Origin: Antedon mediterranea
Lineage: Eukaryota; Echinodermata; Crinoidea; Comatulida; Antedonidae
DNA: 64,000 nucleotides
Reading direction: 5' to 3'
Assembly: GCF_964355755.1 (NCBI RefSeq)
Contig: NC_092676.1
Coordinates: 26,270,288-26,334,287 of the forward strand
In this document: positions 5,887 to 31,530 of the stretch, one piece after another
Numbering within the stretch: position 1 is the first letter of the stretch
Layout: each line of letters opens with the position of its first letter
Position numbers and translations under genes: made by a program
The notes under the pieces: generated by a model
Told to the model about the DNA's origin: nothing
Seen by the model: the letters and a program-made list of their open reading frames with translations, nothing else
The model's database searches: none

Positions 5887-8800
5887 TCAGTCCGTCTTGA
5901 TGAAAATACATCTTTTGCTTGTGCTTCTTCTACATCATCTACACTGGTACAAAGGCACGCTCCCTTTGGAGGGAAGGGTTTCATTGCAGATGTAGCAAAG
6001 CTGGTTTTGTTGTAGTGATTGATGTTCCTTGCAATAATAGGCTATATGTAAAGAAAATTATTAGTATTATTATTGCAGATACTGTACAGTAATGCAATGC
6101 TGTATATTCAAACACATTTAGCTAAACAAAATAAAATTAGGATTTACTATATTTTTAAATATTTAACTTAGTGATTTATACAGTATTAGCAATGCAGTTT
6201 AGCAGTTTACACAAAATATTTACTTGCTTGATACTACCGTAGATGTTAATGGGTCAGTAATAGCTCATATGACCTTTCCTATCTTTTTATGCAACAAAAC
6301 CATAAATACTAATTGAATATTGAATTGAATATATTTGGTTGATGCATGTTCATACCTTCATTCTGCTGATGTTGATAGAGTTTTGGAACCTCATTAGCAC
6401 ACAGAACGCAGCAGTTTCTGTTAGTCCTCCGCGACACCACGCTGCTGATGCCTCCTTTTGCATCTGCACAGGCGACACACATCCTCATAGGATGTGATGT
6501 TGCATCTCGTTCCCAGTCTGCTTTACAACGAAAATCCTGTCAATTAAGAACAAAGTATAACCTCTATTATTAAGGGGACACCTTCAGGACCCAATAAATT
6601 GTCCACTATGTAGGGTTGCCATAGTGTTAAAATATACCTCCTTTTCATTTTATATGAGAAAGTGTTTCCTGAATTAGCGTTCTAATGTTAAGTGTTTATA
6701 TAGAGCATTCCACAAACAATGTCGTCTCTGTGGACTCTCCAAAAAGACTCGTTTTACCATCAGAACCATGGAGCGAGTAAGCCTCAAACCTTTGCCATAA
6801 ATTACAGTTCAACTGTCTTAACTGCTCATCCTCTCACTACACTACTTACTAACTGTATAGTTTAGGATTCTATGACTTGTTCAAATTTTCTCAAATTATT
6901 AATAAAAACTATTGGATCATGAAGAGCATGAAATTGATTGGACTGAAAAGATTAGGACTCAATGTGCTGTGAAATGGATTTCTAGTTTTATCCTACAATA
7001 AATCAATTTTACCTTTAGTTGCTTAGCAATGGCAAAAGCATCCATTTGGTTTCGTCTGGTATCATGCATCAGAAAATTAACCAATCTTTTGATCTCTCCA
7101 GCTTCTCGGAGCTGGTATGGCAGCTCTGTGATCACCAGTTTAGAATTATTGCAGTGATGCTCAAAGAAGTCTGCTAACTTTAAATGGACTGCTTTATATT
7201 TTTTCTGATCACTTAGTAGTTCTTTTTTAACAGTCTTAAAAAGAAGAGGCCCCAGGTTGGAATCTTTGAATGAATTGATGGAATTAAGATAACCAGCAAG
7301 AGATAGAGTTTTTTGGAAAAGTTTAAGAAAACATATGTGAGGCGACTTAATTGGACTCTTTATCATTAATTAATTTTTGTTCTCATTTATGAAAGAAGCT
7401 CTTTATTTTGTTATTGAGTTCAAAAGCAGTAATAAATAATAAATTAAAAAAATTATAAATATTTTTGTTATTTCCAATTTTGTATTTTACATTATCTGAT
7501 TTCGTATTTTTCAAATGTTATTGTTATCATAATAATTTTATTTAAAAAAAAGCAAAAAAATAACAAATAATTATCATAAATACTGTACCCTGATAATAGA
7601 TGAATGGAAGAAGTTAAACTGGTCTATCCGTCCTGGTCTGCTGCTATTCCTCAGAAAAGACTTCAATGTTCTCCTAGCCCGAGTCCACAGCATCATTGGA
7701 GCTGGTGTCTGGCAGTTTCCAAGGATCAATTTCAACTCTGTTTCTGTTAGGCCTTGTCGAGAACACTCTAAAAGGCATAGAATCTGGAAGATTCAAATGA
7801 AAGTGTCATTTACCAAACTATATTTCTAGATCATGATTAAAGCAGAACTTTCCTGTATTGATTAGGACAATTTGTGTATAGTAGTTAATATTTAAATTAT
7901 TAAATTGTAAAATACAGTACAGTAAATTATCAATATTAAGATTTTCTTTCAACATTTTTGCTGGAGAGTATTTTGGTAATATTCACCTCTTTCACATAGC
8001 CTGTGTCATCTTCCTTTATCATTCTCCTGATGATCTCCGCCAACAGATCTTCTAGAATGAATGGCAGTGACTTGATAAATTCTGTCAGGCGTTGAAATAA
8101 TCCAAATACGCGTAGCTCTTCACATGCCAACCACAACCAGAGAACATTTTCAGCTCCTTGAGATGTTGTGAGCAGGGATAGTTGCTCTGGATCTAAACTC
8201 TCTCTAAAATCCAGGATATTATTAATATATTTTTATACAGAAATAGAATTCATGACAATTAAAAGTATGTGAAAAATCACTAGGTTTATACAGTCTCGGT
8301 TTATTTGTATCTTACCTTATTGTACAACTTGAAGTAATTTTCAACAAGTTTTGTTCTTGCACTCTCAGGCAAGTTTGGAAGGTCAAGTTGATATGCTTCA
8401 GGCGACACAGAATCGAGGTTGCCTAGGGTTACAGGATCACGTGTTGTACTGATGATGAAGCGCACAGTGTTATAGCTTTTTGCTGGAATCCATTTTAGAA
8501 AGTCTGTACAATGGGTTAACTTGAATAAAATTGAAAAGTATTTTATTTTAGTATATTGTGTAAGACCTTCAGATAGTGATTGTTAAGTTCATTTTTTAGA
8601 GATCCTGTCTGGTTATGCGTGTTGTTTTTTCTTGTTCTTTTATGTTTTGTATTGTATTTTTATTTATCGCTTGGAGACAAGATAAAGAAATTGTTTTTAA
8701 ACAATACCCTCGGCATACCGCTGCTGAGGGTGTCTTACAATTCACTTTATGACAGAAATAAAATGAATCTGAAAACATTTAAACGAGGAAGGAAGTCATA

Positions 8801-11490
8801 TATTCTAGTCAAAGGTCATTGCTTTACCTATTACTTTGTATGAGTATTGTTGTATATTGACATCATGTTTATAATGTAGATCATACCTGATTCACTGCAT
8901 CCACTACAACCAATAGCTGTTCCTTTGATTTGCCGAATTCTTTCAACATCGTCAAATAAACTGGTAAAGCCCGACTATACTTAAAATCTCTCTTCATTTC
9001 TTCCAATCTCTTGTCTTTTGCACAAAAAAAAAAAAATTATTGTTATGTATTTATATACAATAGGGTTTGTGAATGTTAGTGAATGTCCTGACAAGGGTGC
9101 ATTCATTACTACTGGAGGTGGAGGTTAACCAAGACTTTTATTCGGGAATGAAAAAGTTTAGTTTGAAAGAGATTTTTCATTATAAATGCAAAATAATGTA
9201 TGATAATACCGTCGTGTTTAGTAATTGCTTCACAAAGTCTGGGCAGGAGGCTAGCAGGGTCTGTTGATCCGCAACCAACAAAGTGGTAGAACACATTCAG
9301 ACTAGCCTATAACGAGATATTAATAATGGTTTTTATTAAAACATATATTCATTTTTGAAGATGTTTTTATTATGTTTCTTTCCACCAGCCTACAATAAGA
9401 TATTGATAATAATCTTTTTTTTAAATTAAAATATATGATTTCATTGTGATGATGTTTTTGTTATGTTTTACCTTCTTAGCCTCATAAACGCATTTTGCCA
9501 TGAGGGCGCTCTTTCCTTGTCCAGAGTCTGCCATAATCACCAGGGGTGGTGTCTTGACACTACCGGAAGCCAAACCACCGACTTTCTTGTTTTCTGCTGG
9601 CAAACATCGAGACTTAATGAACTCTGTCTCTATAACAATCTTGTCTGTGGCAAACTTTAGCATGGTTTCCACTAATTCTTCTCGTCCATAAACATAGTTG
9701 GATCTTCCGAAGGTGTAGGAAACTGGGTGATTATAGCTTGTTTAAAGTAGTTTGTGACCAGCTCTGCAAATGTTTCTAACCCTTTCAAGCTCACCTATAA
9801 AATGATAATTGTAGAATATGGTACTACTGACAGTGTGTATGTTAAGAAGGTTAAGTGGATTCTAATTTCAGTTCGGCACTTAAAATTTGCCACTTTTAGG
9901 CGCTGGGACCCCCTATGTCAAAATCCTGAATCAACCACTACAAAGGACACAAGTAAGACAACATGTAGGCAAAGAGCAAACTACAGAATCAAATCTTGGC
10001 TCTAGTCTAAAGTGTGCTGCAGATGGATAGCCTGCTGAACAGTACCTTATTTTTCTCAATTCCTTCTACCTCACATTCATAGTCCTTTACCTGGTTTGGA
10101 AAGGTATCTCGAAGTCGTCCCTTTAGCTCCTAAAAAAAAAATTGTGACACAATTATGCCATTCTACTGTACACTAAATATTGAGATAAAGATAATTGCCA
10201 AATACTTCAAGTTAGAAAGGCGTAACTTACCTTTAACTGAGCAACAGCAAGAGGGTCCTTATCCACAAAGGAGAAGAAATAGTGCATTGGGGTTTTTATT
10301 GCGGAAGGCTCCATTGATTATCTCCATGTGAGTTATGGAAAACCCTGGAATCCATTTATATTGTGCAACAATGTCAGATGGAACATCACTTTCCCCTGGA
10401 ATCCATCCATATCTATAAAAACAAAAATCACTAATACAGTAAATACAGAGCAGAGAATACAAAATAGATACAATCATTTTGAAACAGAGAGTAATTTTGA
10501 CTCAATATTGAATGACTGTTTAAGAGTCGGAATCAGTGTCCAAGTGGTCTTTTGTAGTTCTTTATTTTCACCACATTTTGTAAGTTTATATTTGTTTGTT
10601 ATCCATTGACTGGAACCATAAAATCACTTACCGTTCACTTAACATGTTCAGGAAGAATCCATTGCCTTCTGTCTCATCGTGACCTCTCTCAATTTCTTCT
10701 AAACATGTGCAAAGGATGGTTCTGGTTGTAGAGTCTTTTGGAACACCCCACCGAAGATCACATTCAATCAAATGTAGGTGGCGCTTTTCACAGAATTCTC
10801 GTAAATCTGGGAATACCTAAGATTTAGTGAAACTAACTTGCTAAAAAAAAATAGTTAGAAGAATATTGCAATTTCGTATTATTTGTGTATGTTATCCGGT
10901 TTCCATTTTTAAACATTAATGTCGAATAGAGTAGGTCTACACTATCAAGCTTTATGTGTCAAAATAATGTGATGTGCCCATATATGGACATGATGGGCAC
11001 ATCACTACTAAATAAATTTGAACACATCACACTTTTTTTGTCAAACTAGTTGGATAGTGTAGACAGAGCTTCATCTCTTCATGAGTAGAGCATCTTCTAA
11101 AGGGCAGAAAATAAAAGCTAACCTAATTGTCAAATTATAACAACAACAATGTGAAATGTGTTCAAGGCAACTACTGTGTATATAAGAAATTACAAGATCA
11201 AAACATATTCTATGAAAACAACCAATGCTACTGTAGAGTGGGGCTTTATTAATTGTCGTAGAACTTACCTCTTTTACTAACACCTCCCTCTCAGCATAAA
11301 AGTCAGCAAATGTTGATGAAACAAACAAACGAATCACCTGCCAGCCACTGGCCTTTGTTGATGGTCCAATATGTTCCTCCTTCTTTGATGAGCATTGTGC
11401 TTCAAGAATTTGCCAACATTTTTGGATGGCATCCAGGATGGATTCATTCTCAGTGTCCTTGGGTAATGTTTCTGAAGTGTTGGCAGCCAT
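5887..11490 (-). pseudogene. DUF4062-NACHT STAND NTPase, tandem copy with frame breaks
   Basis: Paralogue of the intact gene at 13115-22444, exon for exon. Exons: 11490-11269, 10816-10632, 10412-10231, 10129-10046, 9794-9472, 9306-9210, 9014-8887, 8519-8316, 8199-7987, 7783-7589, 7234-7013, 6536-6356, 6041-5935 (to 5887 past a stop). Five of these (128, 204, 213, 222, 181 nt) have the same length as in the sister gene. DUF4062 start (WQVIRLFVSSTF, ECDLRWGVP), P-loop (ADSGQGKS), Walker B (LLVVVDAVNQ) and a CxxC tail (CVAC, CCVLC, CYIC) are visible. Lesions: one extra base near 10275 giving TAA at about 10259; a frame break near 9700 (exon 323 nt against 315); TGA at 5935-5937 inside the last CxxC. 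No equivalent of the sister's first exon was found. Assembly errors could explain some lesions, but three make a decaying copy likelier. Confidence 0.65.
10934..11071. mobile_element. MITE family A, copy 2
   Basis: Both terminal repeats are present around a shortened core in which the CACTACC block is partly lost. It lies in the first intron of the STAND pseudogene. Confidence 0.85.
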
Positions 11491-12968
11491 TGTAATGTTC
11501 AGACTTTTGTCTTGAATACACAAATTATATATACCTGTATTGCCTCCCTTTGTTACAATTTATAAATATTGCCTCCATTCAAATAATTGTTAACATTTTT
11601 TGTGAATATCCCATTCTAATGTTGCATAGTTTTTTACTAAAAAAAATTTATTTACCTGTAACTGTAATCTAAAGCAAACAATTGTCAAATTGGCTGCCAG
11701 TTTTTTTTTTTGGTTAAATTTAATTGTTAAAAGTTAAAACATTTTTTCATTTTTTCTTTCTACTATTTAGTTTTGTTATGGTTATGATAACTACTACTAG
11801 ATCAGTAACTTCACTTTTGATTTGTAGCACATAGGGGTTGATCCAGGATTTTTCAAACAGAGGAGTGGTATCGATTCAAATATCTCCAGATTTATATTAT
11901 TGCCTAATAAGTCTCCCTGGATTTAATGCCTATAATTGTATAAACAATGCCTATACTAATACTATGCAAATGTCTCAACATAGAAACAAATTAACAAAAT
12001 ATTTACCTTGATTTTTATTATCTGGATAAAGCAATTGATGATAGAAATGCTGGTAGTAGCCAGTTTCAGTCAGAGAAATGTGTTGCGTTTTAAAGATTAT
12101 TATGAAATAAACAACTTCAGAAAAGATCCTACCTAAGTAATTCTCTCTCTCTGATTGTAAAAGCACTGCTTATTTCTTGTGAATAATAATACATATATAT
12201 CCTTAGCTTCCTTTGTAATGTATTTTGCTACCTGTCCTCGCTTTATCTTTGATGTTTTGAATAAGGCCAATTTGTCATAACTTCCTATATACTGTAGTAT
12301 ACAAGGTCATATATTATTATGTCATAAGTTTTGACATGAATTTTAGGGCCTGTTTGTAAAAGTCAATTTTGTATATTTACAATCATATCTTAGTTCACAG
12401 ACTTGGAAAAGTATATGATGGGAAAAACCTTCATTATTATTATTAAATATTTTTTATATAAATTTTAACTGCCATTTCAACTGCAATATTAATGAAATGC
12501 AGTTAGATTTGTAGTCGTCGATAGCTAAAAGAAGTTTAGTTTACTATCAAAATATAATAATCATCTTTTAACTATTAGTTAATACAGAATACAATAAATA
12601 TCAGACAATCAAATACTATAATACATTTTATAATTGTTTCTAAAAAACTATTTGCAATACAAAAAGCAAAAAAATATACCGTATATTTTGGCAAGATTAT
12701 ACTAATAGTTTACATTAATCTGTCCTATTGGAAACTGTCTTTGGTGACTCATTCCAGCACACATCCCACTTTTGATTAAAAGTATGTAAAACATTGTAGA
12801 TTTAATTATCACTGTTTATTAATTACATATTTCTGTTTTTGCTTCTTGTGTGAACACAATGTTGATTTTTATTCAATAGATGGAAACTTCCCCAATTGCC
12901 AGAGTCCAGTGTCGGAAATGTAAACCAGAATTGTCTAGTCTCCATTTCCTTTCTGTTTGTTAAGTATC
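11491..12968. other. Intergenic spacer between the tandem STAND genes; nothing coding seen
   Basis: AT-rich sequence with short hydrophobic ORFs only. It should hold the promoter of the downstream copy, but no motif stands out. It ends at a 13-bp repeat (12969-12981) that flanks MITE copy 3. Confidence 0.6.
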
Positions 12969-13114: not shown

Positions 13115-16100
13115 CTATTCTTTAGTAACTAGTCTTGTGCATCTTCTTTGGTTTCCACCATTACAAATCATGCATACATACATAGGTAGTGGTTTGTGTA
13201 TAGCACCCATGGGTTTCTTGCAAACAACACATGTGTCTTGTGTTCCAAATATGCCCCTTGAATGGTCCATGCACAACATTGCTGAAAGAAAACGACTCTT
13301 CAATTACTTAAATAACTGATTTTTTTTTACTATGATAATACATCTTAGACTTTGTTTCCCTACCTCAACCTTTAAGCTCTGTTTACACTATCAAACTAGT
13401 TTGACAAAAATAATGTGATGTACCGAAATATGGTAGTGATATGACATCATCATGTACGTCTATAAATGGGTCTATCAGCATTAGAGGTGGCAGTTAGCAC
13501 TGTTATACGGTACTACAAATTCTAGCTTGGCCTTTCCAGGTAAATTCACTATTGGATCACAACAGTGTTGAAAGGCACAACTTTATTTGAATTGTGAACT
13601 TAAGCTTTTAAGGCATTAAAATGCTACTAGTTCAAAAAGCTACCAGTTCAAAAAGTGGTCTTTAAGTGCAAGAGATGAACATATCTTACCTTCATTTTCT
13701 TTCTTGTTTTGAAATGGGTCCACACACTCCCCACACATAAGGCAAACCTGTTTATTAGGCCATGCAGAACGCTTGACAACCCCGCCTCTAAAGTTCTGGC
13801 AAAATGTGCAAATTTTAACCATTTTTGCAAATGGGCCGGGAGATAAAAAGCGTTTCTGACATCGTAAATCCTGTTGAGATAATAATACAAACCATACTAT
13901 ATTAGCAATGATCACTTAAGCTTGGTTCCCACTAGAACGTAACACAAGGACGTAAACGCAAGCGTGTTAACCAATGACAAGCGACAGTTTGAATAATCCA
14001 TCGCTTGTGATTGGTCAATTCACTTGCATTGCGTTTACGTCCTCGTGTTGCGTCTCTAGTGGGAACCAATCATAAGAGTTTGCCTGTTACTGTATGCTAA
14101 ATTTAGTTTTTTCTAAATTCTAAATTCAACTTACTTTCAACGTTCTAGAAATCATAATCCTGCCCATCTTTGATGCTCTTGTGTCCTCCATCACAAAATC
14201 TGCCAATCTCTTTGTCTTTCCCGCAGTCTTCAGTTGATATGGAAGCTCCTGGACAACTCTACTATCATTCTGACAATGATACTGAAAGAACTCTGCAAGT
14301 CTTAAGTGTTGGACTTCCTGTTTTTCTGGACTTGATAGGAGGGTTGTTTTTACTGCCTATAAAGAAAGAGAAATTATGGTTGAGAGAAAACTGTATCAGG
14401 AATGGATCTCAATGGAGATACAAAATAAAATAAGCAAAAAGCTAAATCAAAACAATAAAATAAGACAGCCAGAAAAATTAGAGCTTTCAGGCAACACTAA
14501 GTCTTCATCAGGAATGATAGTTTTATTATTATTTATTTCCTTTATTGCATCAAGTAAGCAGTGATGAAGTTGACATAAATATAATAGTAAATATGTAAAC
14601 ACATAGTATAACACAGTCCAAACAAGTAATACTAAAATAAATCATAGTCCACAAATCAGTCTTTCAATGGCCATCATAGTACATCCAGTAACACAAACCA
14701 ATAGGGGTTCACAATTTGCTTATCATAACTCAGTTACTGATCATTCACCAATCATTGAAAACTCCGTGGAAAGTAATGAAGTTTTTTGTGCGTTGTGTCC
14801 GGATAGTTATATATAAAGAGTGGATAATTATAAAGCAATTTTTATCAAGTTCTTCAAACCTTTTTAATTGATGCATGAAAGAAATCTAACATTGGTTCCC
14901 CTCCTGATCCGCTAGAGTTCCTTAAGAATGGCCTCAGGGTTCGTCTAGCTTGTGACCATGGCAACATTGCAACCAGTTCGTTTTTCTCGCAATCTCCCAA
15001 CATAAAATGAAGTTCAGTTTCTTTCAAACCAGCTTGAGAACACTCCAAGAGGCACAGTATCTGAAAAGTATTGATAAGAAAAAAATAAAAAATTTGCCTC
15101 AACACAAAAGTGTTAGTTTAACAAACACATTTTTAGAAATTGTTGCCCTGAATATATTACTTGATTGATTAGCTATTGGGGCTTAAGAGACAGTTGATAC
15201 AGTATATAACTATATACTGGACAATCTTTGGCACTAAGTTTAAACTTTCCAATTTGTATTTTTACCTGCTCCACAAATGAGGTTTCATCCTCATTTATCA
15301 TTCGTTGAATAATTTCTGATATTAAACCATCTAGAGATGGGTGAAGTTGTTTTATGCGTTGAGTGACTTCCTCAAAAACTCCAAAGATGCGTAATTCTTC
15401 ACAAACCAGTGACAGCCACAGGACATTTTTGGAGCCTTCTGATTGGACAAGTAAAGCAAGTTGTTCAGGATCTAGTTTCTGATAAAAAAATGTGTTATTT
15501 CTGAACCATCAGACAATTGATTTTGTGAGAAATATTTAAAATGTTGCATAATCTTATAGTTTTTTTCATTTCAACTACACTACAAACATTGTGAACTTTC
15601 TCAAATAAAACTTCATACCTTGTTGTACCGTCCAAAATAGTTCTGAACTATGTCCATTTTAGCTGACTCATCCAAGTCCGCGAGATTGAGTCTTTCTCCA
15701 GAGGGCAGCATATCATTGATTTCTTGCAATGTGCCACCTTCTCTTGTAGTACTTATAATAACTTGTATCGAACCAATCACTTTTGGTGGAATCCATTTGA
15801 GATTGTCGTTGCCCTTCACAAGCTGTAATGGATATTAAAAATAATAGATGAAAAACGCTGATGCAACCAAACTCACCTTCTTCTTGTTGATGATTTACTT
15901 TAATAATAAAGGTCATGGCTATTAGGCTCCACTAAAGTCAAAAGTGCGGACTTAGTTTTACTTATTATATTGTTTTCATTACCTGATTGACGGCATCAAT
16001 TATTATCAGAAGCTGTTCATCTGTTTTTCCAAATTCCTTCAAGAGGTTTGCCAGTAGTATCAAAGCTCTTTCATAATTAAACTTCTTTTTTAACTCGGTC

Positions 16101-19100
16101 CATTCTGCATCTGCAACAAATTTTAAAATACATACATGTGAGATCATATCAATCTACTTATCTATCAATAGCATTTATAGTTTCACAATAATGTTTGAAT
16201 GATGCTCATTACAATTCAACTTTCATTGGGAACTTACTTTCAGTTTTTATCAGAGTCTCACAAAGTCTGTAGACTAGATTCGATGCATCTGTTGATTGGG
16301 CTGTGCATCCAACAAAATGATAAAACACATTCAACCCTTCCTGTCAATTGCAAAAAAATACATATAATAATATTTGATAGTATAAAGACACAATAGATGT
16401 ATACGATTGGTCATGCGCAACAAGTTTGAGGAGCTGATCTGCTGATTTTCTGCTCAGAACAGCCTAAAAATAATGGATTCATTTCTGTTCATTACGTGTA
16501 CAGCCCCATTAGAGAATGTGTTCATTTTTACCCGAAGTTTTGAAAAACTTCGGGTAAATGTCACTTAACCTCCTACTGTGACATGTGTTTATATAAGTCT
16601 TTGATAGGCAGGTCGTTAAACCTTTTGATCATCACCGAATTTTGCTAGTTTTTGCCTGACCTTTGACCTTGAATACTGAAGAATGTACCTTGTCCTAATC
16701 AATCAATTACAAGAGAGCTAATAAAATCACAGGGGTATAATAGGATTCAGGTAATTTATCACCTGCTCAGTTGATTTATCTGATAAGGATTTTGACCAAA
16801 AAGTTCTAATGGGGATGTACACCTAATGTTAGATAATTGGAGGGAAATACGCAAAGAGACACAGCCAAGCATATGTAATTTTATACTAGACATGAAACTC
16901 GTCACTTTGACGAGTTAGTTATCCGCACGACAGATGCCACGTGCACGTCATACGTTAAAAACTATAATAAGAGGTGGTCCTGTATTTTCGCCTTGTAGGC
17001 TATTATAATTATACAGTACACTGTGTATAAAAGGAGACATTAATTCTACATGATACAGAGGGCGGCAAACAACAATTTGCTCACATCAGTGACTATGCTG
17101 GTGTACATTGTACTACTGTATTATTATATGACATATTAACTGAATTATGGGACCTGCCTTTAATTCAAATATTTAACATGATGACGTCATAAAAAAAACA
17201 ACACAACGATAGCAATTTCTGAAGAAAATTATCTTAGCAACAACATATTAACGTGTAGAAGAAATTTGAATACGTAAAATGTTGGTGCGCGCACATTTAA
17301 ATGTGATGAACTATTACGCAAAATATGAAAATACGACTTTTTTTATTCAACTGGCAATATGATAACGTCACAACATCCGATTGGCAAAATGTTTACATGA
17401 ATTCGTATCTACAATCCTATAGCTTCCAGAAAACGTTTCAATCGTGATTATCACATTTTATTCTTACGAGCTATTACAGATTAAAATTTACTGTAAAGAT
17501 GAAATTAATGACCCACGTAATTAAAATTTTTAGGCATGATGACGTTATAAAAATTAAAATATTTTTATCTCATGCTAAAGAAAGTTGATTGACCTAGACA
17601 ATATATAAATATAGGAGAAAAAGGAATACAGATAAGCGTGATGCGCTCCATTGAATGTGATGAGCAATAACGAAACAGACAAAAATCCTATATTTTACAT
17701 TCGTGTGGCCATACGATTACGTCACAATGTTTTTTTAGCCTTATCGATGCATGATCCGATATCTGCAACTCATCAACTTCTAGATTTTGTAATAAAAATA
17801 AACGGTTCACGGTTTACTTTAGAAACTATGACTGTTTAAAAAAAGACATTATTTTGATGATTTTTTAAGCTTTTTCATAAAAAACGCGCACAAATTGTCT
17901 AATTCAACGTGTTCGTATGGCGTTATTTAAACTGGAAAAGTTCTAAATTGTTTTCAAAATTACTAGGAAAGGCTTGAAAAATATAATTCAAGAGAAAAAA
18001 ATATGTTTTTATCGCTACGTGCGCACCGCGTGCGTAAAAAATTGCGCGCCCGTGGGAATTTTTGACATGCTCAAAATGACATGAAACGCGTAAAAAGTTG
18101 ATTAGAAATTAATTTTGCGCATTTTGAAATTTTAAATGCGCGTGCGCGCGTAACTTCTTGTGAAACATGCCATTTTTAATCCGTAGAAAGTTTGCCCCTG
18201 ATATGACTTAAATTTTGTCAAAGTGTCAATACTAAATGACTTTTGGTTTTTAATCTATGATCAATCATTGAAATTCATAAAATTGCGCGTAAGTCACGTT
18301 GCGCAACTATGACGTCATTCAAAAATAGGAGGTGCACAACTTCACGTAAATGCCCATATGTTGTCAAAGTTATGAAATGTTATGTTTACACATTTTAGAG
18401 AAACGCGACTCACAAAAAGGAAGGAAGGAAAGAAGAATAATACAGAAAAAAAATGTTGATCTCATACAATAACAAGGAGTTATCCGCTTGGTATACCAAG
18501 CGGATAACTAATAATATGCAGCTCAAAGAATGTGCACTCCTCCTTGCTAGCTTACCTGTTTTGATTCTCTGACACATTTAGCCATCAAAGCACTCTTCCC
18601 TTGACCAGGATCTGCAACAACCAGCATTGGTGAACTACCCTCTTCTGAGTCCTTACTTGATTTGGCAAATGTCAGCATCTTCTGGATTTCTTTGCTTCTG
18701 CCAAACACCATAGTACCTCTTTGCTCCATGAATATCTGGTGTTGCTGTGTTTCTATTTCTTCTGGTGTTTGGTTCTTTACTTCTTTTTCTGGATACTTCC
18801 TTGCTATGGCAGACTTGAAGAAGTCCAAAACTGTCTTGGCAAAATCGTCTTCAAGACCAACCATCTTAACCTTTTATGATGATATTTAGTCATATTATTA
18901 ACAAGTTACAAGTATTGATTCATATGTAAAACTTAACTATATTTATAATTTATGCATAGAAATTTTATTTTATACTTTATGAAGAATTTTGACAGAATGC
19001 TAACTGTACGGTACGTACCTTTCCATTTTCAACAGAATCAACTTTACAGGAATAATCAAAAACTTGCTCTTTAAAAGTCTCTCTCAGTTGTTTTTTTAGT

Positions 19101-22100
19101 TCCTGCAATTGAAAAAAGGTTATTCAGTGATGTAGCCACAAGATATAAAGTGGTGTGGTTTTCGCAAGAAAGGGGAACAATCTCTGTTCAAGCCACTAGG
19201 TTGTCAAAGGCCCCTGTGACAAAGTGGTCAGGTTGAAACCTTAATACCAACCGTACTGCTGGCTACGGCCCTGTTGTTGGAAAATTGTTACTTGTTTGCC
19301 ATTCATTTGTTGTTAAATATCATATACAGTACGGTATATGTTGTTTTTCTTTAATATTCAAACACAGGCTAATAGTGAGTGAGTGAGTACATTACCTTCA
19401 TTTGTATTTTACAATAATCGGAGTCATCAACAAAGCCAGGCCTTTGATCAGTAGGTAAATCTTCAAGAAGTACGGTATATGTTGTTTTTCTTTAATATTC
19501 AAACACAGGCTAATTAATAGTGAGTAAGTGAGTACATTACCTTCATTTGTATTTTACAATAATCGGAGTCATCAACAAAGCCAGGCCTTTGATCAGTAGG
19601 TAAATCTTCAAGAAACGATGAATCCCTTATAAGAAACAATGAATTTGGATTGTTTGATGTATAAGCCCCTCGTACAATCTCCATGTGAGTGACCGAGGTT
19701 CCGTGCACCCAATCATATTGCTTGGTGAGGTCAGCTGATACTGCTTCCTTATTTGGCACCCATCCATATCTAAAACAATAGAAATTTAAATTATTATAAT
19801 TATAGTATATCTATGGATATATAATAATAACAGGTTAAATTTATTATTTTTTATTTGCTTTGACCTTTCACTTAGCATGTTAAGAAAGAACCCATCTCCT
19901 TCTGCTTCTTCATGACATCGTTCTATCTCATCTAAACAAGTACATATTGTCGTTTTAGTGGTCGAATCACGTGGTACTCCCCACCGCAAATCACATTCTA
20001 TTAACTGTAGGTGGTGCTGTGTACACCATTCTCGTAATTCAGGAAAAACCTTTTGAATAAAAAGAAAGTCATGAGTTCTCAAAATAAAACAATGGATTCA
20101 CTTTTAAATTTCTAGAGAATTAAAGACATTTTACTTTTACATTTTACTAGAATGCAAGAACAATAATTGTGTAAATAAAAACCTATTATATAACTATTTA
20201 AATAAAATTTCAAATAAATTCTTTAAGAGATTAAGATTCAACAATCTAAGATGAAAATGAACAAATAGAAGGTATCAAGAATGGATTGGAATGAATTACT
20301 AACCTTTTTAACAAGAACCTCTCTTTCTGCATGAAAATCACGGAATGTAGATGAAACAAAAATGCGGATGACTTGCCAATTCTGATTTGTTTCCTCATTC
20401 TTTTTGTTTTTCGTTTTAGATTTGTGTTCCCGCCGTTGCTTCTCAATCTGCTCCCAGCATTTGTTGACACATTCCTGTATTTCAGTTTCATTGGTCGGTA
20501 AAGACATGTTGGATTCACAGAAATGATTGTCTACCGCAAGTCCAAGCTCTGTGGAAACAACAACGAGAGAGTGGGTTTTACAACATTGTGGCAAATACAA
20601 CACTATAGGACCTTGAATGTGACAAGATAGTGTGGTGCGGTGCAGGGTAGGAACGAATTACCCTAATTTCAGTTTATGGATAATGAACATTTCTAAAATA
20701 AAAATGTCCCCATTCTATAATTTAAACATTAAAAATAGGTGTTAATCAGCATTTGTCCCTTATCACCTAACCCTTTTTATTTCAAAATAAGAGATTTTTA
20801 TTCTACCTATTGTTAGAGTGTCGTTGTCATAACCTTACCTTTTTAAATACAGTATATAAATAACCATAGAGATTCACTATAATATCTTTATGATATAACG
20901 CACTCTATCAATATAAACCAGAGAAGCACTGTCTGGTATAACACACTCTGGTTGCAAGATAAGTACCGTATATCAACAATGATATTCCACAACTGTTTAA
21001 ATATTAATGACTACTATCTACAATCCAATGATCAGGATGTTTATTCTAATATGTATAAGAACGACAAATACAAGCCTGATCGCTTGAGTAACTTCCCCTT
21101 TCAAGTGACCAACCACAAACATTATCCTGGATCAGTTCAAGCGATGAAAGGAAATAAATGACAATATATTATTTTTTTGTCAATTGTTAGAAATATACGG
21201 AAATAAGAAGCAGAATATATTTAAAAGTTGTTTCTTTCTCAGACATACTGTAATATACAAATGTAATACAGCATAAAAAAGGAGATTTCTCATAATTAAT
21301 TGTGTGTAAAAAGTCATCAAGATGCAAAAAATGCCTAAAGCTGTCTACACTATCAAACTAGTTTGAAAAAAAAAGTGTGATGTGCCCAAATATGGTAGTG
21401 ATATGCCAAAATATGATATGACATCATCATGTCCATATATGGGCATATCAAATGTTTTTTCTCACATAAAGTTTGTAGACAGAGCTTTTTACATCATAAA
21501 CAAATGTACAGCATCAAAAAGATTTGTAAAAATTATATTGTGTGTATGAAAGTCAACAATAGAATATACTTATGTACAGTATATTGTTACATACAATACA
21601 TAGTCATACAATGTGACTGCTCAGATGGAAGTTTTTAAACAATGTAAATTCCAGATTTTAAATAATAGAACACAAAAGGGTACATATCTAGTGCAACTTG
21701 GATTAGAATATATAGAAAAGGGAAAGTGAACTTCTCTGATATGATACAAACTGTCTTCAACTATGAATGTGGTTTTAACTCCTTTAGAGCACAATATACA
21801 GTACTGTACATTATAGTATGGTACGACAAACTGCATTGAAATCACTTTTGTTTGTTTTAAGTAAGTATAAGTTTAGTTGATGATTCTGAGTGCCGCCAAT
21901 AAATAAATATACTGTAATCATTGTTTTAAAGGATTTATTTGTTACCTTTTATCTGATTTTCCTTTCCAAAGTACATATAAGGCCTAATTATAAGGTGTAG
22001 TATTTACAATATGGTTATTTAACAAATTTGGAGTCGAAAGGGAATTTGTAAAGGCAACAAGATTCACATCTTTCTGGGATCTGCCTTCGTCCATTTTCTT

Positions 22101-22766: not shown

Positions 22767-23929
22767 TACAACCCTTTGGACTGGTAAAAAATGTCTTTAG
22801 TTTTTTTTAGTAGGAAATAATTTAGGAAACAATTTTTTTTTTTGACAATAAGAGCGAGTCAATTTAAAAGAAAAATAACAATACAATTTATTATCTAACC
22901 AAAACAATACAAACTAAATTAATTCATATGTTATCTAGACAAATAACCAATTTAATTTGTGTTTGGTTTTTCTTTGGTATCTAGCCTGTCACCTTTGTTT
23001 GCCCCCACGCGTTACAAAGGAAATCCTGTGGGATGGTACTTAACTTTGTTAGGATGACTTAACCCTTGTTGAGCTGATACTTAAAGTTGGGCTTGATAAA
23101 ACATCACTTAAGAAATTATACACTGCTAATTGTTTGTATTTTTAACAGGAAAAATTAATTTACCGATTATTTCACCTAATATTTGTAATTAAGCATATGG
23201 TTTTTACTAATATTACCTTATCTATTCATTTACATTTCTCTTCTTGAATTTCTGAAGCGTCTTACCACCTCCCTGCCGTGAGTGTTGACAGTTGCCAAGT
23301 TTGCTTTACGCTTCGCTGAACACGACAACTATGGAACGCCTCATGGACAATTACATTTGAAAAGGTGACCAAGTTAAAGCCCTGTCTGCACTATCATACT
23401 TTATGTGACAAAAAAATGGGCCCATATATGGACACGATGACGTCATATCACTACCATATTTGTGCATATCACTACCATATTTAAGCACTAGTTTGATAGA
23501 GCCGTTTACATTTGTTTACGTTTTTAAGCCAGTACAAACACAATCACCAGTTTTCAACACTGACGCTTGTGATTAAATATCGCATACTGGATATATCTTA
23601 CTAATATACATCACATCAGATCTGTTTTACTTTATGACTAGACTATGTTTATTTTTGTTTCGTTATTTATTTTATTACACATTTTTAGCTGCTCAGAGTT
23701 GCTATTGCTAAAAAGCACCTAAACAATCCGTGGGTATTGTAGTCATGTGGTTGATAAACATCATTTAAAATTAAAAACTATTTAAAAAATAATCGAAAGT
23801 ACATTCTGGTTTTACAACGTTTTCTATGTAACATAAACATAATGTTTGCATGTTATTGTGTAAAACATTGTACTACAGCAAATACATTCACTCAGTCTGT
23901 TTGCGTACATAAACCAACAACAACTAATT
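22767..23929. other. Intergenic region between the STAND gene and the Ig receptor
   Basis: No coding sequence recognised. It contains a truncated MITE and ordinary AT-rich sequence. Promoters of the two divergent genes should lie here, but no convincing motif was found. Confidence 0.5.
23376..23503. mobile_element. MITE family A, copy 7 (right end eroded)
   Basis: Left terminal repeat and core with two CATATCACTACCATATTT units; the right end stops at GTTTGATAGAGCC. Confidence 0.8.
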
Positions 23930-24772
23930 ATGAGTAGTTTTTCGGTGAAATATTTGGTCATCTTTGCATTGATAATTACATTAGTACAATGCGATCGTCT
24001 TTATTTCAACGTTTCACCCAGAGATACAGTTTACGAAGGTTCAAATCTGACAATGCACTGTCTAACCGACCTCAACCTGAAATTTGCTTATGAGACAAAA
24101 CGATATGGAAGTAACAGATTAGAAGGAACATGTTCTTCTGGGGATCGACATGTTTATCCTGAATTTACCATATCTTGTAACACGTCTACGACCAGTGCAT
24201 TGCTGTTAATATCATTAGATATTTACAACGCATCGTTTGGACAAACAGGTGTTTACAGGTGTTGGAATTCTAACGGATATAAATTTATCATATTAACTGT
24301 TCTTTCCAAACCTACTCCAGCCTGTACAACGACCAGTGCTTTTGTCGAGGCTGATATTCCGAAAGAGTTCATTTCGTACAGTGCGACTACAGTCGGGCCA
24401 GCGTTGTACAATGGGACTACAGTCGAGCCAGCTTTGTACAGTGGGACTACAGTCGAGCCAGCTTTGTACAATAAAACATCAAAAACAAATGGACCAGCAA
24501 AGTCGGAAGGAGAAGAGATAAGCCAAGCCAAACTCGATCTAATTAAATACATATCAATTGCTGGTAACATCGTATCCATAGTCATCATCGCGATTCTATC
24601 TATCTGTTCCTTCCGTAAATGTAACAGAAAGAAAAATAACTTCCAACAAGCAGATATGCCTACAGTTCCTGTAGGACATACAATGGGTGAAGGAGGCTAC
24701 TTGGGTTATAAATTAGTTGTCAGTGAGATGCAGGAGCACATCTATCAAACAGTTGTTAATACGAATAAATAG
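23930..24772 (+). CDS. Single-exon Ig-domain type I receptor with ITIM-like tail
   Basis: 280 aa in one open frame. Residues 1-21 form a signal peptide (hydrophobic 8-20, likely cleavage near C21). Residues 25-125 are Ig-like: YEGSNLTMHC (C44) and TGVYRCW (C111) give the B- and F-strand cysteines, with an extra pair C68 and C83. Asn-X-Ser/Thr sites are at about 39, 84, 100, 161 and 181. The stalk (152-181) is three near-identical 10-residue units, (A/G)TTV(G/E)PALY(N/S), encoded by a 30-nt tandem repeat at 24383-24472. A transmembrane helix spans about 207-227, followed by basic RKCNRKK. The tail has LGYKLV (Y260), a canonical ITIM, and IYQTV (Y272), 12 residues apart. Such tails bind SH2 phosphatases or kinases in animal immune receptors; the role here is inferred. 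Lack of introns suggests a retrocopy or a fast-evolving family member. No orthologue recognised. Confidence 0.75.
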   Translation: MSSFSVKYLVIFALIITLVQCDRLYFNVSPRDTVYEGSNLTMHCLTDLNLKFAYETKRYGSNRLEGTCSSGDRHVYPEFTISCNTSTTSALLLISLDIYNASFGQTGVYRCWNSNGYKFIILTVLSKPTPACTTTSAFVEADIPKEFISYSATTVGPALYNGTTVEPALYSGTTVEPALYNKTSKTNGPAKSEGEEISQAKLDLIKYISIAGNIVSIVIIAILSICSFRKCNRKKNNFQQADMPTVPVGHTMGEGGYLGYKLVVSEMQEHIYQTVVNTNK

Positions 24773-25925
24773 TACAACTTTTGTGTAGAAAAGTATAACA
24801 AGTTTCGTCCAACTTTGAGAAGGCAACCCGATACTGAACTTTTTCTAACTTAGTTTTCGCTACGTTGCGATTTGCGAAACCGTCTGTTTATAAATAATAT
24901 TAATGCTAGTCTTATATATCCTCTAATACAATGTTTCTAAGCACTTTACAAACAAAAATGATCCATAAAATATCCCAAAGAAGAAGAAGAGGAACCAATA
25001 TTCTCCATCACTTGGAAGCTCTCATGAGAGCTCGCCGGAACAGTATTAGAATATAATATAGCAATTTATATAGCGCACATATCCACTAAAAGTGCTCAAG
25101 CATCTGTCTATCCTATCCTACCAAAATAAGAAGAAAACGATTTTGCGATGAAGGAAAATAACAAGGAAAGCAAATGAATGTAATTTTTTAGATAGGCCTA
25201 AGTTTGAAATTAAATTGAAGTGTACAGTTTTATGAGATGTTTGAAGGTTATCATCATCGTTGTTTCTCTTTGTCGCACTTCGTATAGAGAATTCACTAAA
25301 ATCGTTAATCGTGTTTCGATTCCTTTTACGTTTTCCACTCACAAAAACACGTTAAATAAGTTGCTGCCTAATAAAAATCAGTTATGTAATGCGATAAAAA
25401 TAACATTTCAAAACTTAATCGAAAGAGGAAACATTTCCGTTAGTAATTGGCATATATTCCTGTTAAAATATAATTTTAATATCCATTTCTGCGAAGAAAA
25501 AAAGTCTACGTACATTCCAATTGTGACACTACAGTAACACAATTGTAAAGAAAGATTTAGATTCGGACTTTGGAAGGAGACATGAGAACGAAGTAGACTT
25601 AGCATGGAGCTATACAATTTTATAGCTCCATGGACTTAGTTAGTTCTTTGTCTGACGTCACAACGTGGTTACTTGGCAAAATATAATTTTGCTGCGTATT
25701 ACGATAGTGTTCACAATTTCCAAGTTATCTGAACAGGACATGCCTATTGATTTTCAAAAAAATCGATGTATTGGTGATGCTTTAAATCTCGAGTTATCTA
25801 TATCTAAAAATAATATATAGCACGCCCTCTGTTGCTTTTAAATTTTGTACAGTACTGTTACATTTCACTCCTATTCTGAGAGCTTATTTTATGTTATAAC
25901 CTATGTGAATTTATATATATAAAAG
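24773..25925. other. Intergenic; repeat fragments, no supported gene
   Basis: Contains the 3' UTR of the Ig receptor, a GAAGAAGAAGAGG-type run near 24978, a 12-bp-stem hairpin (CATGGAGCTATA..TATAGCTCCATG) at 25603-25632 and a 105-codon open frame at 25220-25537 with no recognisable domain. Confidence 0.5.
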
Positions 25926-26144
25926 AATAAGCTTTTTATGTCCATATATGTGGGGATTTAAAAGAAATAATAAAGTAAACTAATTAGCTAAGTAAAACAA
26001 TAAGCTTTTTATGTCCATATATGTGGGGATTTAAAAGAAATAATAAAGTAAACTAATTAGCTAAGTAAAACAATAAGCTTTTTATGTCCATATATGTGGG
26101 GATTTAAAAGAAATAATAAAGTAAACTAATTAGCTAAGTAAAAG
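25926..26144. repeat. 73-bp tandem repeat, three copies
   Basis: The unit starts AATAAGCTTTTTATGTCCAT and ends GCTAAGTAAAAC; copies begin at 25926, 25999 and 26072 and are virtually identical. The ATGTCCATATATG word is also in the family A MITE core, so the unit may derive from it. Near-identity suggests recent expansion. Confidence 0.9.
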
Positions 26145-26558
26145 AATAAACTTTTTTTGTCAGTTATATAAAGCAATATTACTTATGCCATTCTTCATAA
26201 CATCAAATGTGTATATACACACCTGTTTATTAGATATCAACATCTTTATTAGATAATATACAGTATATGTTTGTTTGTATTTAAAGAAAATGTCTTCACT
26301 TTGTATGCATTCAACAATTTATAAAACAAAAGATTAAAAATGTTCAAAAAATGTATTATATTATTCACTAAAAACAATTTTTATGATACAAACAAAAGTC
26401 ACATTATGGAAATCAAGTTCAGACTTAGCATTTTGTTGACAACCGGTACACGAGTTAAAGAAAGCAAGATTTTTTGTTCCGATATATAATAAGTAAATAT
26501 GAAATTGTTGTATTGAAAATTACTTTTGGAATGCCTAAAAATTAAGGAAAAATATGTT

Positions 26559-26641: not shown

Positions 26642-27589
26642 AGGCCTTGTCTTTTCAAAATTGTAGGTGTGCTACAAATTGCACTTCTCAATACATTCAG
26701 GGGTGCTGTTTGTACTTTGGTGTGTAGAAATTTACCAAATTTAGGCGTGTTGTAAATCGCACTCCTCAAGGGCAGTTTAGGAATATGTTAGGTGAGTGAT
26801 CACTCTTGCTCGCCTTAAAAGATAAGGCCTGTCACACTGATGTGTAGATTGTGACTCGGGTGCAATGATCACTTGCTTTATAATAAATACAATATTCCAG
26901 AGACAGTTTTTAGACAGGTTCCATTTCTCAAAAAACGGCCTAGAAAACGAATCAAGAAGCATTTTTGGGTAGAAGCTGGGATCCACTTGATTTAGGATAT
27001 TTCGACCTCGCTTCTTATGAATATGGCGGATCCCAAGCGAAATTCGGCCATCTAAGCCCTTAATTTGCATAATTAAAAATGGCGGCCATTTTTTATAATT
27101 ACCCTATATCTCGAGAACCACTAGTCACAGGTAATTAATTTTGGTGTCAAAATGTTTTAAATATATGTTTTTATATTCACTTTAATGACACATTTTCTCA
27201 AAAAATGGATGCAAGTCTTATTTCTGACATTTTGACCTTTGACCTTGATTTATCGTATCTCAGTAACCAATAATCGGAGAGACACGAAATAGGGCTCAAA
27301 TTGTTCAGAAACTATACATTCATATTTATTATAATGAAATGTTTTTACAAAAAATGGCCGATTCTACAACTATTGACCTTTGAACTATTAGTCAATTATA
27401 ATAATATAACTCTGAAAATTTTGGTCTTATGACATTTTTTTTCTTTTTAAATTGTTTAAAACATGTGTGTTTCTATCCAGTCTAATGGCACATTTTGTAG
27501 AAAGAATGGCCGATAGTATGGTTATTGACCTTTAAACTACAGCATAGGCCTACTGTATACTAAATATAATATAATTGCATAACTATGAA

Positions 27590-28185
27590 ATTATTTATAC
27601 ACAATGATAATTAGTAAAATTATAAAATTCACTGCCATCAAATATGATGTATTATGATTTATATAGATTTAAAAAAAAAATTGAACACGCAAGTTACATT
27701 TGTTGAAATTTGAAATTACCTGCCATCAATATGATGGAGTATGATTATAGATTTTTTAAAATGTGAACATGTCAGCTACATTTGGAAATTACCAGCCATC
27801 AATATGATGGATTATGATTATAGATTTAAAAAAGAATTTGAACACGTAAGCTACATTTGAAAATTACCTGCCATCGATATGATGGATTATGATTATAGAT
27901 TTAAAAAAGAATTGTAACACGTCAGCTACATTTGGAAATTTGAAAATTACCTGCCATCAATATGATAGATTATAATTGTATAGATTTAAAAGAAAATGTG
28001 AACACGTAAGCTACATTTGAAAATTACCTGCCATCAATATGATGAATTATGATTATAGATTTAAAAACGAATTTGAACACGTCAGCTACATTTGGAAATT
28101 TGGAAATTACCTGCCATCAATATGATGGATTATGATTGTATAGGTTTGAAAGAAAATGTGAACACGTAAGCTACATTTGGAATGA
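27590..28185. repeat. Minisatellite of about 75 bp in the left arm
   Basis: Roughly seven diverged units built on CTGCCATCAATATGATGGAT, ATTATAGATTTAAAA and GAACACGT(A/C)AGCTACATTT. The same unit occurs about three times, inverted, at 30510-30725, so the array was inside the element before or during its inversion and changed length afterwards. Confidence 0.85.
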
Positions 28186-28245
28186 ACATGTTAAGGGCAT
28201 CAGTTTTGATCATTCATGTAAAGGTTTCCGTCATCTTTAGCGTTG

Positions 28246-30395: not shown

Positions 30396-30440
<45 letters not shown>
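29614..30440 (+). mobile_element. LINE (non-LTR retrotransposon) 3' fragment
   Basis: Encodes the reverse-transcriptase C-terminal region typical of CR1/L2-like LINEs: LPYLTYCNIIWGNTY, KKTVRYIANA, FLYSWLNSILPSHFYDLF, FTGPKLWDNVP, SFKLKRHLLSSY, with a frameshift near 29888. It ends in a (TTGA)n tail, about eight units. Flanking AAAG on both sides and perfect continuity of the host arm across the gap show it as a later insertion, 5'-truncated in the usual LINE way. Confidence 0.85.
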
Positions 30441-30441
<1 letters not shown>

Positions 30442-31530
30442 AGATGACGGAAACCTTTAAATGAATGATCAAAACTGATGCCCTTAACATGTTCATTCCA
30501 AATGTAGCTACGCGTTCACATTTTCTTTCAAACCTTTATACAATCATAATCCATCATATTGATGGCAGGTAAGTTCCAAATTTCCAAATGTAGCTGACGT
30601 GTTCAAATTCTTTTTTAAATCTATAATCATACTCCATCATATTGATGGCAGGTAATTTCCAAATGTAACTTGCATGTTCATTTTTTTTTAATCTATATAA
30701 ATCATAATACATCATATTTGATGGCAGTGAATTATATAATTTTACTAATTATCATTGTGTATAAATAATTTCATAGTTATGCAATTATATTATATTTAGT
30801 ATACAGTAGGCCTATGCTGTAGTTCAAATGTCAATAACCATACTATCGGCCATTCTTCTACAAAATGTGCCATTAGACTGGATAGAAACACACATGTTTT
30901 AAACAAAAAAAATGTCATAAGACCAACATTTTCAGAGTTATATTATTATATTTGACTAATAGTTCAAAGGTCAATAGTTGTAGAATCGGCCATTTTTTGT
31001 AAAAACATTTCATTATAATAAATATGAATGTATAGTTTCTGAACAATTTGAGCCCTATTTCGTGTCTCTCCGATTATTGGTTACTGAGATACGATAAATC
31101 AAGGTCAAAGGTCAAAATGTCAGAAATAAGACTTGCATCCATTTTTTGAGAAAATGTGTCATTAAAGTGAATATAAAAACATATATTTAAAACATTTTGA
31201 CACCAAAATTAATTACCTGTGACTAGTGGTTCTCGAGATATAAGGTAATTATAAAAAATGGCCGCCATTTTTAATTATGCAAATTAAGGGCTTAGATGGC
31301 CGAATTTCGCTTGGGATCCGCCATATTCGTAATCAGCGAGGTCGAAATATCCTAAATCAAGTGGATCCCAGCTTCTACCCAAAAATGCTTCTTACACCAT
31401 ATTTCAGAGGAAATAGAACTTGTCTATTTCATTTGTGGTCTAAAAAACTTTTACAATATTTTACAATTAGGGTAGTATGTGAAAGTGTACCCTATATTTT
31501 AAAATTGTTCATTTAATTTCAACATTATCC

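Follow-up and report, generated by a model that had tools for sequence, protein, structure and literature searches.

An uninterrupted single-frame gene for a predicted Ig-like receptor with a tyrosine-motif tail, and its relatives in the same genome

Innate immunity in vertebrates is marked by Ig receptors of both activating and inhibitory kinds, and the vertebrate PIR-B, LILRB and FCRL proteins contain several Ig domains and are encoded by multi-exon genes. In the tunicate Botryllus, the fester co-receptors (FcoR) are described as a multigene set of Ig-superfamily type I receptors whose tails carry ITIM, hemITAM or core Yxx[ILV] motifs; they are 520-610 amino acids long, alternatively spliced, and composed of a V-type Ig domain, a sushi domain, two C2-type Ig domains and a transmembrane (TM) helix (PMC12065747). 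The same account links receptors with tyrosine tails to tunicate allorecognition and refers to the candidate allorecognition genes of Hydractinia, a cnidarian (PMC12065747). The oyster CgIgIT2 is reported as an Ig receptor whose tail carries tyrosine signalling motifs and which occurs mainly in hemolymph (PMC11999971). In addition, a hemocyte membrane glycoprotein with two ITAMs is described from Halocynthia, and transcripts for ITIM and ITAM proteins from Ciona (PMC5465252).

The gene analyzed here encodes a predicted protein of 280 amino acids. Like the FcoRs as described in that account, it appears to be an invertebrate Ig type I receptor with a tyrosine-motif tail, but it contains one Ig region, has no sushi domain among its Pfam matches and is read from an uninterrupted coding frame, so that it departs from the FcoR domain plan. 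The five Ig domains and the classic ITAM attributed to CgIgIT2 are both absent from it (PMC11999971). It is similar to the Halocynthia glycoprotein in being an invertebrate membrane protein with tandem tyrosine motifs, although the latter has two ITAMs and its cited account describes no Ig ectodomain (PMC5465252). Invertebrate receptors with tyrosine tails have already been published, and the unusual part is the intronless plan and its scale. We found no intronless Ig receptor of this kind in the open-licence literature, which does not by itself prove absence.

The window, meaning the whole 64-kb stretch of DNA analyzed, corresponds to C7:26270288-26334287 of an assembly of 354,431,138 bases (354 Mb) in 18 contigs. 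A COX1 search of that assembly gave no match. The window contains on the plus strand, at 23930-24772, one open frame of 280 codons from ATG to stop, which a genome search places at C7:26294217-26295056. Among 100 sequences of 64 kb simulated from the window's dinucleotide steps, the longest ATG frame had a mean of 113 aa and a maximum of 166 aa, and the receptor frame exceeds all of them. We note that the word intronless applies here to the coding frame as read from genomic DNA and does not cover the 5′ UTR. The features of the gene are as follows.

23930..24772, plus strand: uninterrupted coding frame of the predicted Ig receptor, 280 aa (frame reading; paralogues elsewhere in the genome)
23930..23992, plus strand: putative signal peptide, about residues 1-21 (hydropathy only)
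23993..24319, plus strand: Ig-like domain, C44-C111 plus the extra cysteines C68/C83 (Pfam, signatures, shuffles)
24320..24541, plus strand: stalk with the odd Cys132 and sequons N161 and N181 (sequence reading)
24376..24472, plus strand: 30-bp tandem repeat, 3.2 copies, encoding YxGTTVEPAL-like stalk repeats (repeat detection)
24542..24607, plus strand: predicted TM helix, about residues 205-226 (hydropathy, tail alignment)
24698..24718, plus strand: proximal tyrosine cassette YLGYKLV (Y257, Y260), containing LGYKLV (tail comparison)
24734..24754, plus strand: distal tyrosine motif EHIYQTV (Y272) (tail comparison)

The initial annotation had read this frame as a signal peptide, a four-cysteine Ig-like domain and a repeat stalk, followed by a TM helix and by a tail with LGYKLV and IYQTV. 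The frame, hydropathy and repeat analyses confirm that layout, with the Ig-like domain as a predicted part. The hydropathy maxima lie at residues 1-28 and 201-232, the cysteines are at positions 21, 44, 68, 83, 111, 132, 226 and 231, there are six N-glycosylation sequons, and the cytoplasmic tail has 54 residues. Codon usage did not separate the receptor frame from other frames (score -0.004, exceeded by 67 of 278 long frames). The Arf-type, RFX-type and aldehyde dehydrogenase genes of the window gave partial Pfam profile matches in the single frame tested for each, which is the pattern that split genes should give. The uninterrupted receptor gene thus has split genes in its surroundings; a zf-TRAF_2 gene in the window has a 325-aa frame. 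A short MITE-like repeat family, with ends like AAGCTCTGTCTACACTATCAAACT, is found at 23370-23511 and at about a dozen other places, and one of its copies ends ~420 bases upstream of the receptor ATG.

The Ig-like domain scored below the Pfam cut-offs when isolated (Ig_3, E 0.0022 and 18.9 bits, cut-off 30; Ig_2, 13.5 bits, cut-off 27), and the whole protein matched Ig_3 at E 0.021. None of 10 shuffled ectodomains matched any Ig model at E≤1. A paralogue from the same genome, P0002, passes the Ig_2 cut-off with 28.0 bits against 27. The domain contains both the B-strand signature GxxLxMxC44 and the E-F signature LxIxxAxxxQxGxYxC111, with Q replacing the usual D; the two together occurred in 0 of 200,000 shuffles, the pattern having been written post hoc from this sequence. 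In an alignment with two relatives, C44 and G107-x-Y109-x-C111, that is, the B- and F-strand cysteines and the GxYxC motif, are invariant, and C68 and C83 are not. The strand-C tryptophan usual in Ig domains is missing, W112 being the sole tryptophan. The spacing of 67 residues between C44 and C111 is V-like. The best PDB sequence matches of the domain are to vertebrate receptors of the PIR-B/LILRB/FCRL kind (PIR-B, E 0.0039; FCRL5, E 0.025), both weak and partial; the next matches, beginning at E 0.086, are fucose-binding lectins and unrelated. AlphaFold2 models computed from the single sequence, with no alignment, had a mean pLDDT of 38 for the full-length protein and 40 for the Ig domain, in which seven strands were formed; given this low confidence, they were not used as evidence for the fold. 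The Ig domain proposed at first thus finds its support mainly in the paralogue that clears the Pfam cut-off, and the receptor's own profile score and models leave it as a predicted assignment.

The genome search with the receptor protein returned nine matches at E≤10, the receptor itself among them. Away from the receptor's own locus, relatives lie at C6:17.89 Mb and, as two adjacent genes, at C1:25.30 Mb. The C6 relative (C6:17894183-17895044) was matched in two pieces (E 5.0e-5 and 5.1e-4). The match at C1:25304682-25305578 has an E of only 0.1 but spans residues 3-276 in one open frame, and the reverse search from this gene returned the receptor at E 0.006 together with the adjoining gene (C1:25301852-25303205). 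P0002, the frame of 321 codons from stop to stop at C1:25304652-25305584, aligns with the receptor over nearly its whole length (BLASTP as a single comparison, 5e-13). An uninterrupted single frame is seen in two of the four members of this group, the receptor gene and C1:25304652-25305614; the copies at C1:25301852-25303205 and C6:17.89 Mb each run over two overlapping frames, so that each contains an intron, a frameshift or an error of assembly. Of 11 paralogue pairs, 10 were computable and had dN/dS ratios of 0.31-0.69. The ratio for the receptor and the C6:17.89 copy was 0.40, with dS close to saturation at 1.8; the pair of the receptor and the C1 relative C1_A is saturated. Such ratios support the view that these are real coding genes, probably under mild constraint. 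These comparisons suggest that the receptor belongs to a small group of putative Ig receptors with a shared tail type in the same genome, hereafter the short group. The initial annotation had recognized no orthologue, and this stands for what could be searched, with the addition of the paralogues.

Other matches were set aside. L005 is a repeat-coded frame, with L007 in the same 118-codon frame; L006 is a short stalk-like repeat, and no receptor lies at L009. A viral mimic is not supported, as none of the 12 stretches of viral contigs that fit a pattern was confirmed as a relative. The reverse search from the C1 relative also gave matches on C11. A 332-codon frame at C10:2894323-2895255 matched the repeats in the tail of the C6:17.89 copy five times (E 0.11-1.35), and a 487-codon frame at C7:1394733-1395005 matched them once (E 0.13).

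One weak match, at C6:28891227 (E 1.3), is a three-Ig receptor in an uninterrupted frame of 629 codons. A search with this receptor gave at least 66 matches at E≤0.01 (71 scored of 199 candidates). Grouped by distance, they form at least 45 loci, an undercount in which some neighbours are fused and the domain order was read in some loci only; 38 of the loci have an open frame of 400 or more codons, and 32 of these 38 have no stop within the matched pieces. The loci are concentrated at C6:28.89-28.97 Mb (21 of 45), C6:5.74-5.88 Mb (8), C3:18.70-18.75 Mb (8) and C6:25.45 Mb (3). The region C6:28.883-28.972 Mb (L024-L029 in part) contains tandem three-Ig genes with long open frames and tyrosine-rich tails, some copies having stops. 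Among seven three-Ig representatives from other sites, Yxx[ILVM] follows the last TM helix in two, namely L031 (PLYAEI, GYYHDV, SLYAEI and EYYHEV, in a frame that runs off the fetched DNA) and L036 (SVYAEI and VSYKTM). The whole frames L030, L033 and L034 have zero such sites after the last TM helix, and L032 and L035 have none up to the edge of the fetched DNA, where their frames run off. An hhalign comparison of the short group with the three-Ig cluster gave a probability of 6.5% (E 0.0056, 20 columns), and no common family is proposed. Since their profiles could not be joined, the three-Ig set is used here as context and not as proof of one family.

The tail of the receptor (GYLGYKLV...EHIYQTV) contains LGYKLV (Y260) and HIYQTV (Y272), 12 residues apart. 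Only LGYKLV fits [ILVS]xYxx[ILV], which we take to be the ITIM consensus, as HIYQTV has H at -2. Composition shuffles of this tail gave an ITIM in 8.6% of cases, an ITIM with a second Yxx[ILV] in 2.2%, and an ITIM with a pair spaced 6-12 in 0.47%, so that the ITIM motif alone is near chance. The tails of the relatives read NYMEYTVQ...EHQYQSI in C1_A, YYMEYKVE...ENQYEGI...ESIYQTI in C1_B, and three copies of [G/V]YMEYNV with zero Yxx[ILV] in the C6:17.89 copy. The invariant tail columns of a three-protein alignment include G249, M252, E254, Y257, Y260, E269 and Y272; in the C6:17.89 copy, a repeat of the proximal cassette stands in the Y272 column. E254, Y257 and Y260 are invariant in all four tails, which have in common the cassette Y257-x-x-Y260-x-[L/V], and a distal YQ[T/S][V/I] site is present in three of four. 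At the aligned Y260, the +3 residue is V in the receptor and Q, E and G in the three relatives, so the ITIM fit at this site is private to the receptor gene (0 of 3 relatives). The distal sites of C1_A and C1_B are HQYQSI, NQYEGI and SIYQTI, the last being a canonical ITIM. Conservation among paralogues thus upholds the tyrosines pointed out initially and not the ITIM context of Y260, and the Y272 motif, which had been given second place, is the better kept YxxV/I site.

For tail statistics, we counted sites in 11 tails (the four of the short group and 7 of 10 three-Ig cluster frames; c6_5, c6_8 and c6_10, which stop short of a tail or reach the limit of the fetched DNA, were omitted) and compared them with 5000 shuffles. 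Tail starts were set by eye, and the tails, being paralogous, are not independent of each other. Yxx[ILV] occurred 28 times against 13.34 in shuffles, a count that 0 of 5000 reached. Sites with an acidic residue at -2 to -4, which we take as an ITAM/hemITAM-like context, numbered 21 against 5.49 (0/5000). Strict ITIMs were not enriched (5 against 3.31; 1187/5000), and YxxP occurred 7 times against 3.18 (182/5000). When the close copies c6_3 and c6_6 were dropped, the values were 22 against 9.96 for Yxx[ILV] (0/5000), 17 against 4.15 for the acidic context (0/5000), 4 against 2.33 for strict ITIMs (1003/5000), and 5 against 2.58 for YxxP (548/5000). The YxxP sites (YMTP, YITP and YLIP) recall Crk-type SH2 sites and are not clearly above chance without the close copies. 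In the short group alone, Yxx[ILV] was not significant (5 against 2.65; 484/5000), the acidic context gave 4 against 1.10 (86/5000), and strict ITIMs were not clearly enriched (2 against 0.43; 314/5000). The tail signal comes from the three-Ig cluster; the short group alone is suggestive, and its own signal is weaker than the pooled figure implies.

We consider it rather likely that the receptor is a type I membrane Ig receptor with an SH2-docking tyrosine tail, and we leave its sign, activating or inhibitory, unassigned. The open frame, the domain order, the paralogues and the kept tyrosines support this by observation. In the mechanism we propose, one Ig domain would be displayed at the cell surface on a probably glycosylated, repeat-built stalk followed by the TM helix. 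Clustering of the receptor by a ligand would lead to phosphorylation of Y257/Y260 and Y272 by a Src-type kinase, and the phosphorylated tail would become a docking strip to which SH2 proteins bind; recognition of this kind may serve immunity or self/non-self distinction. The genome's SH2, tyrosine phosphatase (PTP) and kinase genes are possible readers of the tail. There are 53 SH2 matches in the genome; at C3:14097618-14104506, PTP pieces come after SH2 pieces on one strand, giving exon matches in the order SH2-SH2-PTP, and at C6:3449612-3452931 a kinase piece comes after an SH2 piece, all of these being exon-level family matches and not gene models. The genome also has at least 153 tyrosine-phosphatase matches (150 of 278 candidates scored), many closely spaced on C5 and C6, and several kinase domains that each lie within one open frame; these matches are spread over many contigs.

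The sign might be inhibitory, in which case the Y260 ITIM together with Y272 would recruit a tandem-SH2 phosphatase of the SHP type and damp immune-cell activation. LGYKLV fits the consensus, the SH2-SH2-PTP exon matches at C3:14.10 Mb could represent such a phosphatase, and SIYQTI at the distal site of one relative is a canonical ITIM. However, the ITIM is lost at the aligned Y260 in all three relatives, where the +3 residues break the rule, and neither the 11 tails nor, clearly, the short group is enriched in strict ITIMs, and 8.6% of shuffles of the receptor tail contain one. We regard the inhibitory reading, as put forward in the initial annotation, as unlikely.

It seems similarly improbable that the receptor is activating and ITAM-like, with YKLV-x8-YQTV binding the tandem SH2 domains of a Syk-type kinase. 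The spacing of YxxV-x8-YxxV lies within what we take to be the ITAM range, and the excess of acidic-context sites in the 11 tails points the same way. Against this, the strict ITAM Yxx[LI]-x6-12-Yxx[LI] is missing and only the V form is present, the +3 position of the first tyrosine is Q, E or G in the relatives, and no Syk-type locus was pinned down in the genome.

Small single-Ig adhesion proteins are common, and the gene could encode one whose tail serves endocytic sorting through YxxPhi motifs and not tyrosine-kinase signalling, since both tail sites also match YxxPhi. The C6:17.89 relative has no tail Yxx[ILV] yet keeps YMEYNV in three copies, which argues that the cassette is kept apart from YxxPhi and makes sorting a quite doubtful explanation. 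A processed retrocopy or decaying pseudogene, open by chance, would suit the uninterrupted frame, the uninformative codon score and the two frame-split relatives, but is very unlikely, as A-runs of at least 8 bases are absent from 23001-26500, the flanks share just two 10-base matches, one relative on C1 is likewise a single uninterrupted frame, and the paralogue pairs appear constrained.

Extending the reading of a docking-tail receptor to the whole genome, we tentatively suggest that Ig receptor genes with uninterrupted frames form a large repertoire, made up of the 45 three-Ig loci, many in tandem, and the short group, with diverging ectodomains and mixed SH2-docking tails (YxxI/V, YxxP and YxxYxV). 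It might be a single-exon counterpart to the leukocyte receptor clusters of vertebrates, with a role in immune or self/non-self recognition. If true, such clusters would be an independent further animal case, and their genes would be easy to clone and type because each is one exon.

The window has other features. Long inverted repeats at 26954-28238 and 30440-31393, including arms of 502 nt and 177 nt with 98% complementarity and a distance of 2.2-3.4 kb, look like a recent mobile element. On the minus strand, two adjacent split genes at 7000-11560 and 14100-20660 contain DUF4062 frames at 22 and 20.1 bits (cut-off 24.7), and we presume a NACHT-type architecture for both. The coding-frame end of one of these DUF4062-like genes carries a 100-base local duplication (19370-19469 and 19515-19614) whose copies are 99% identical.
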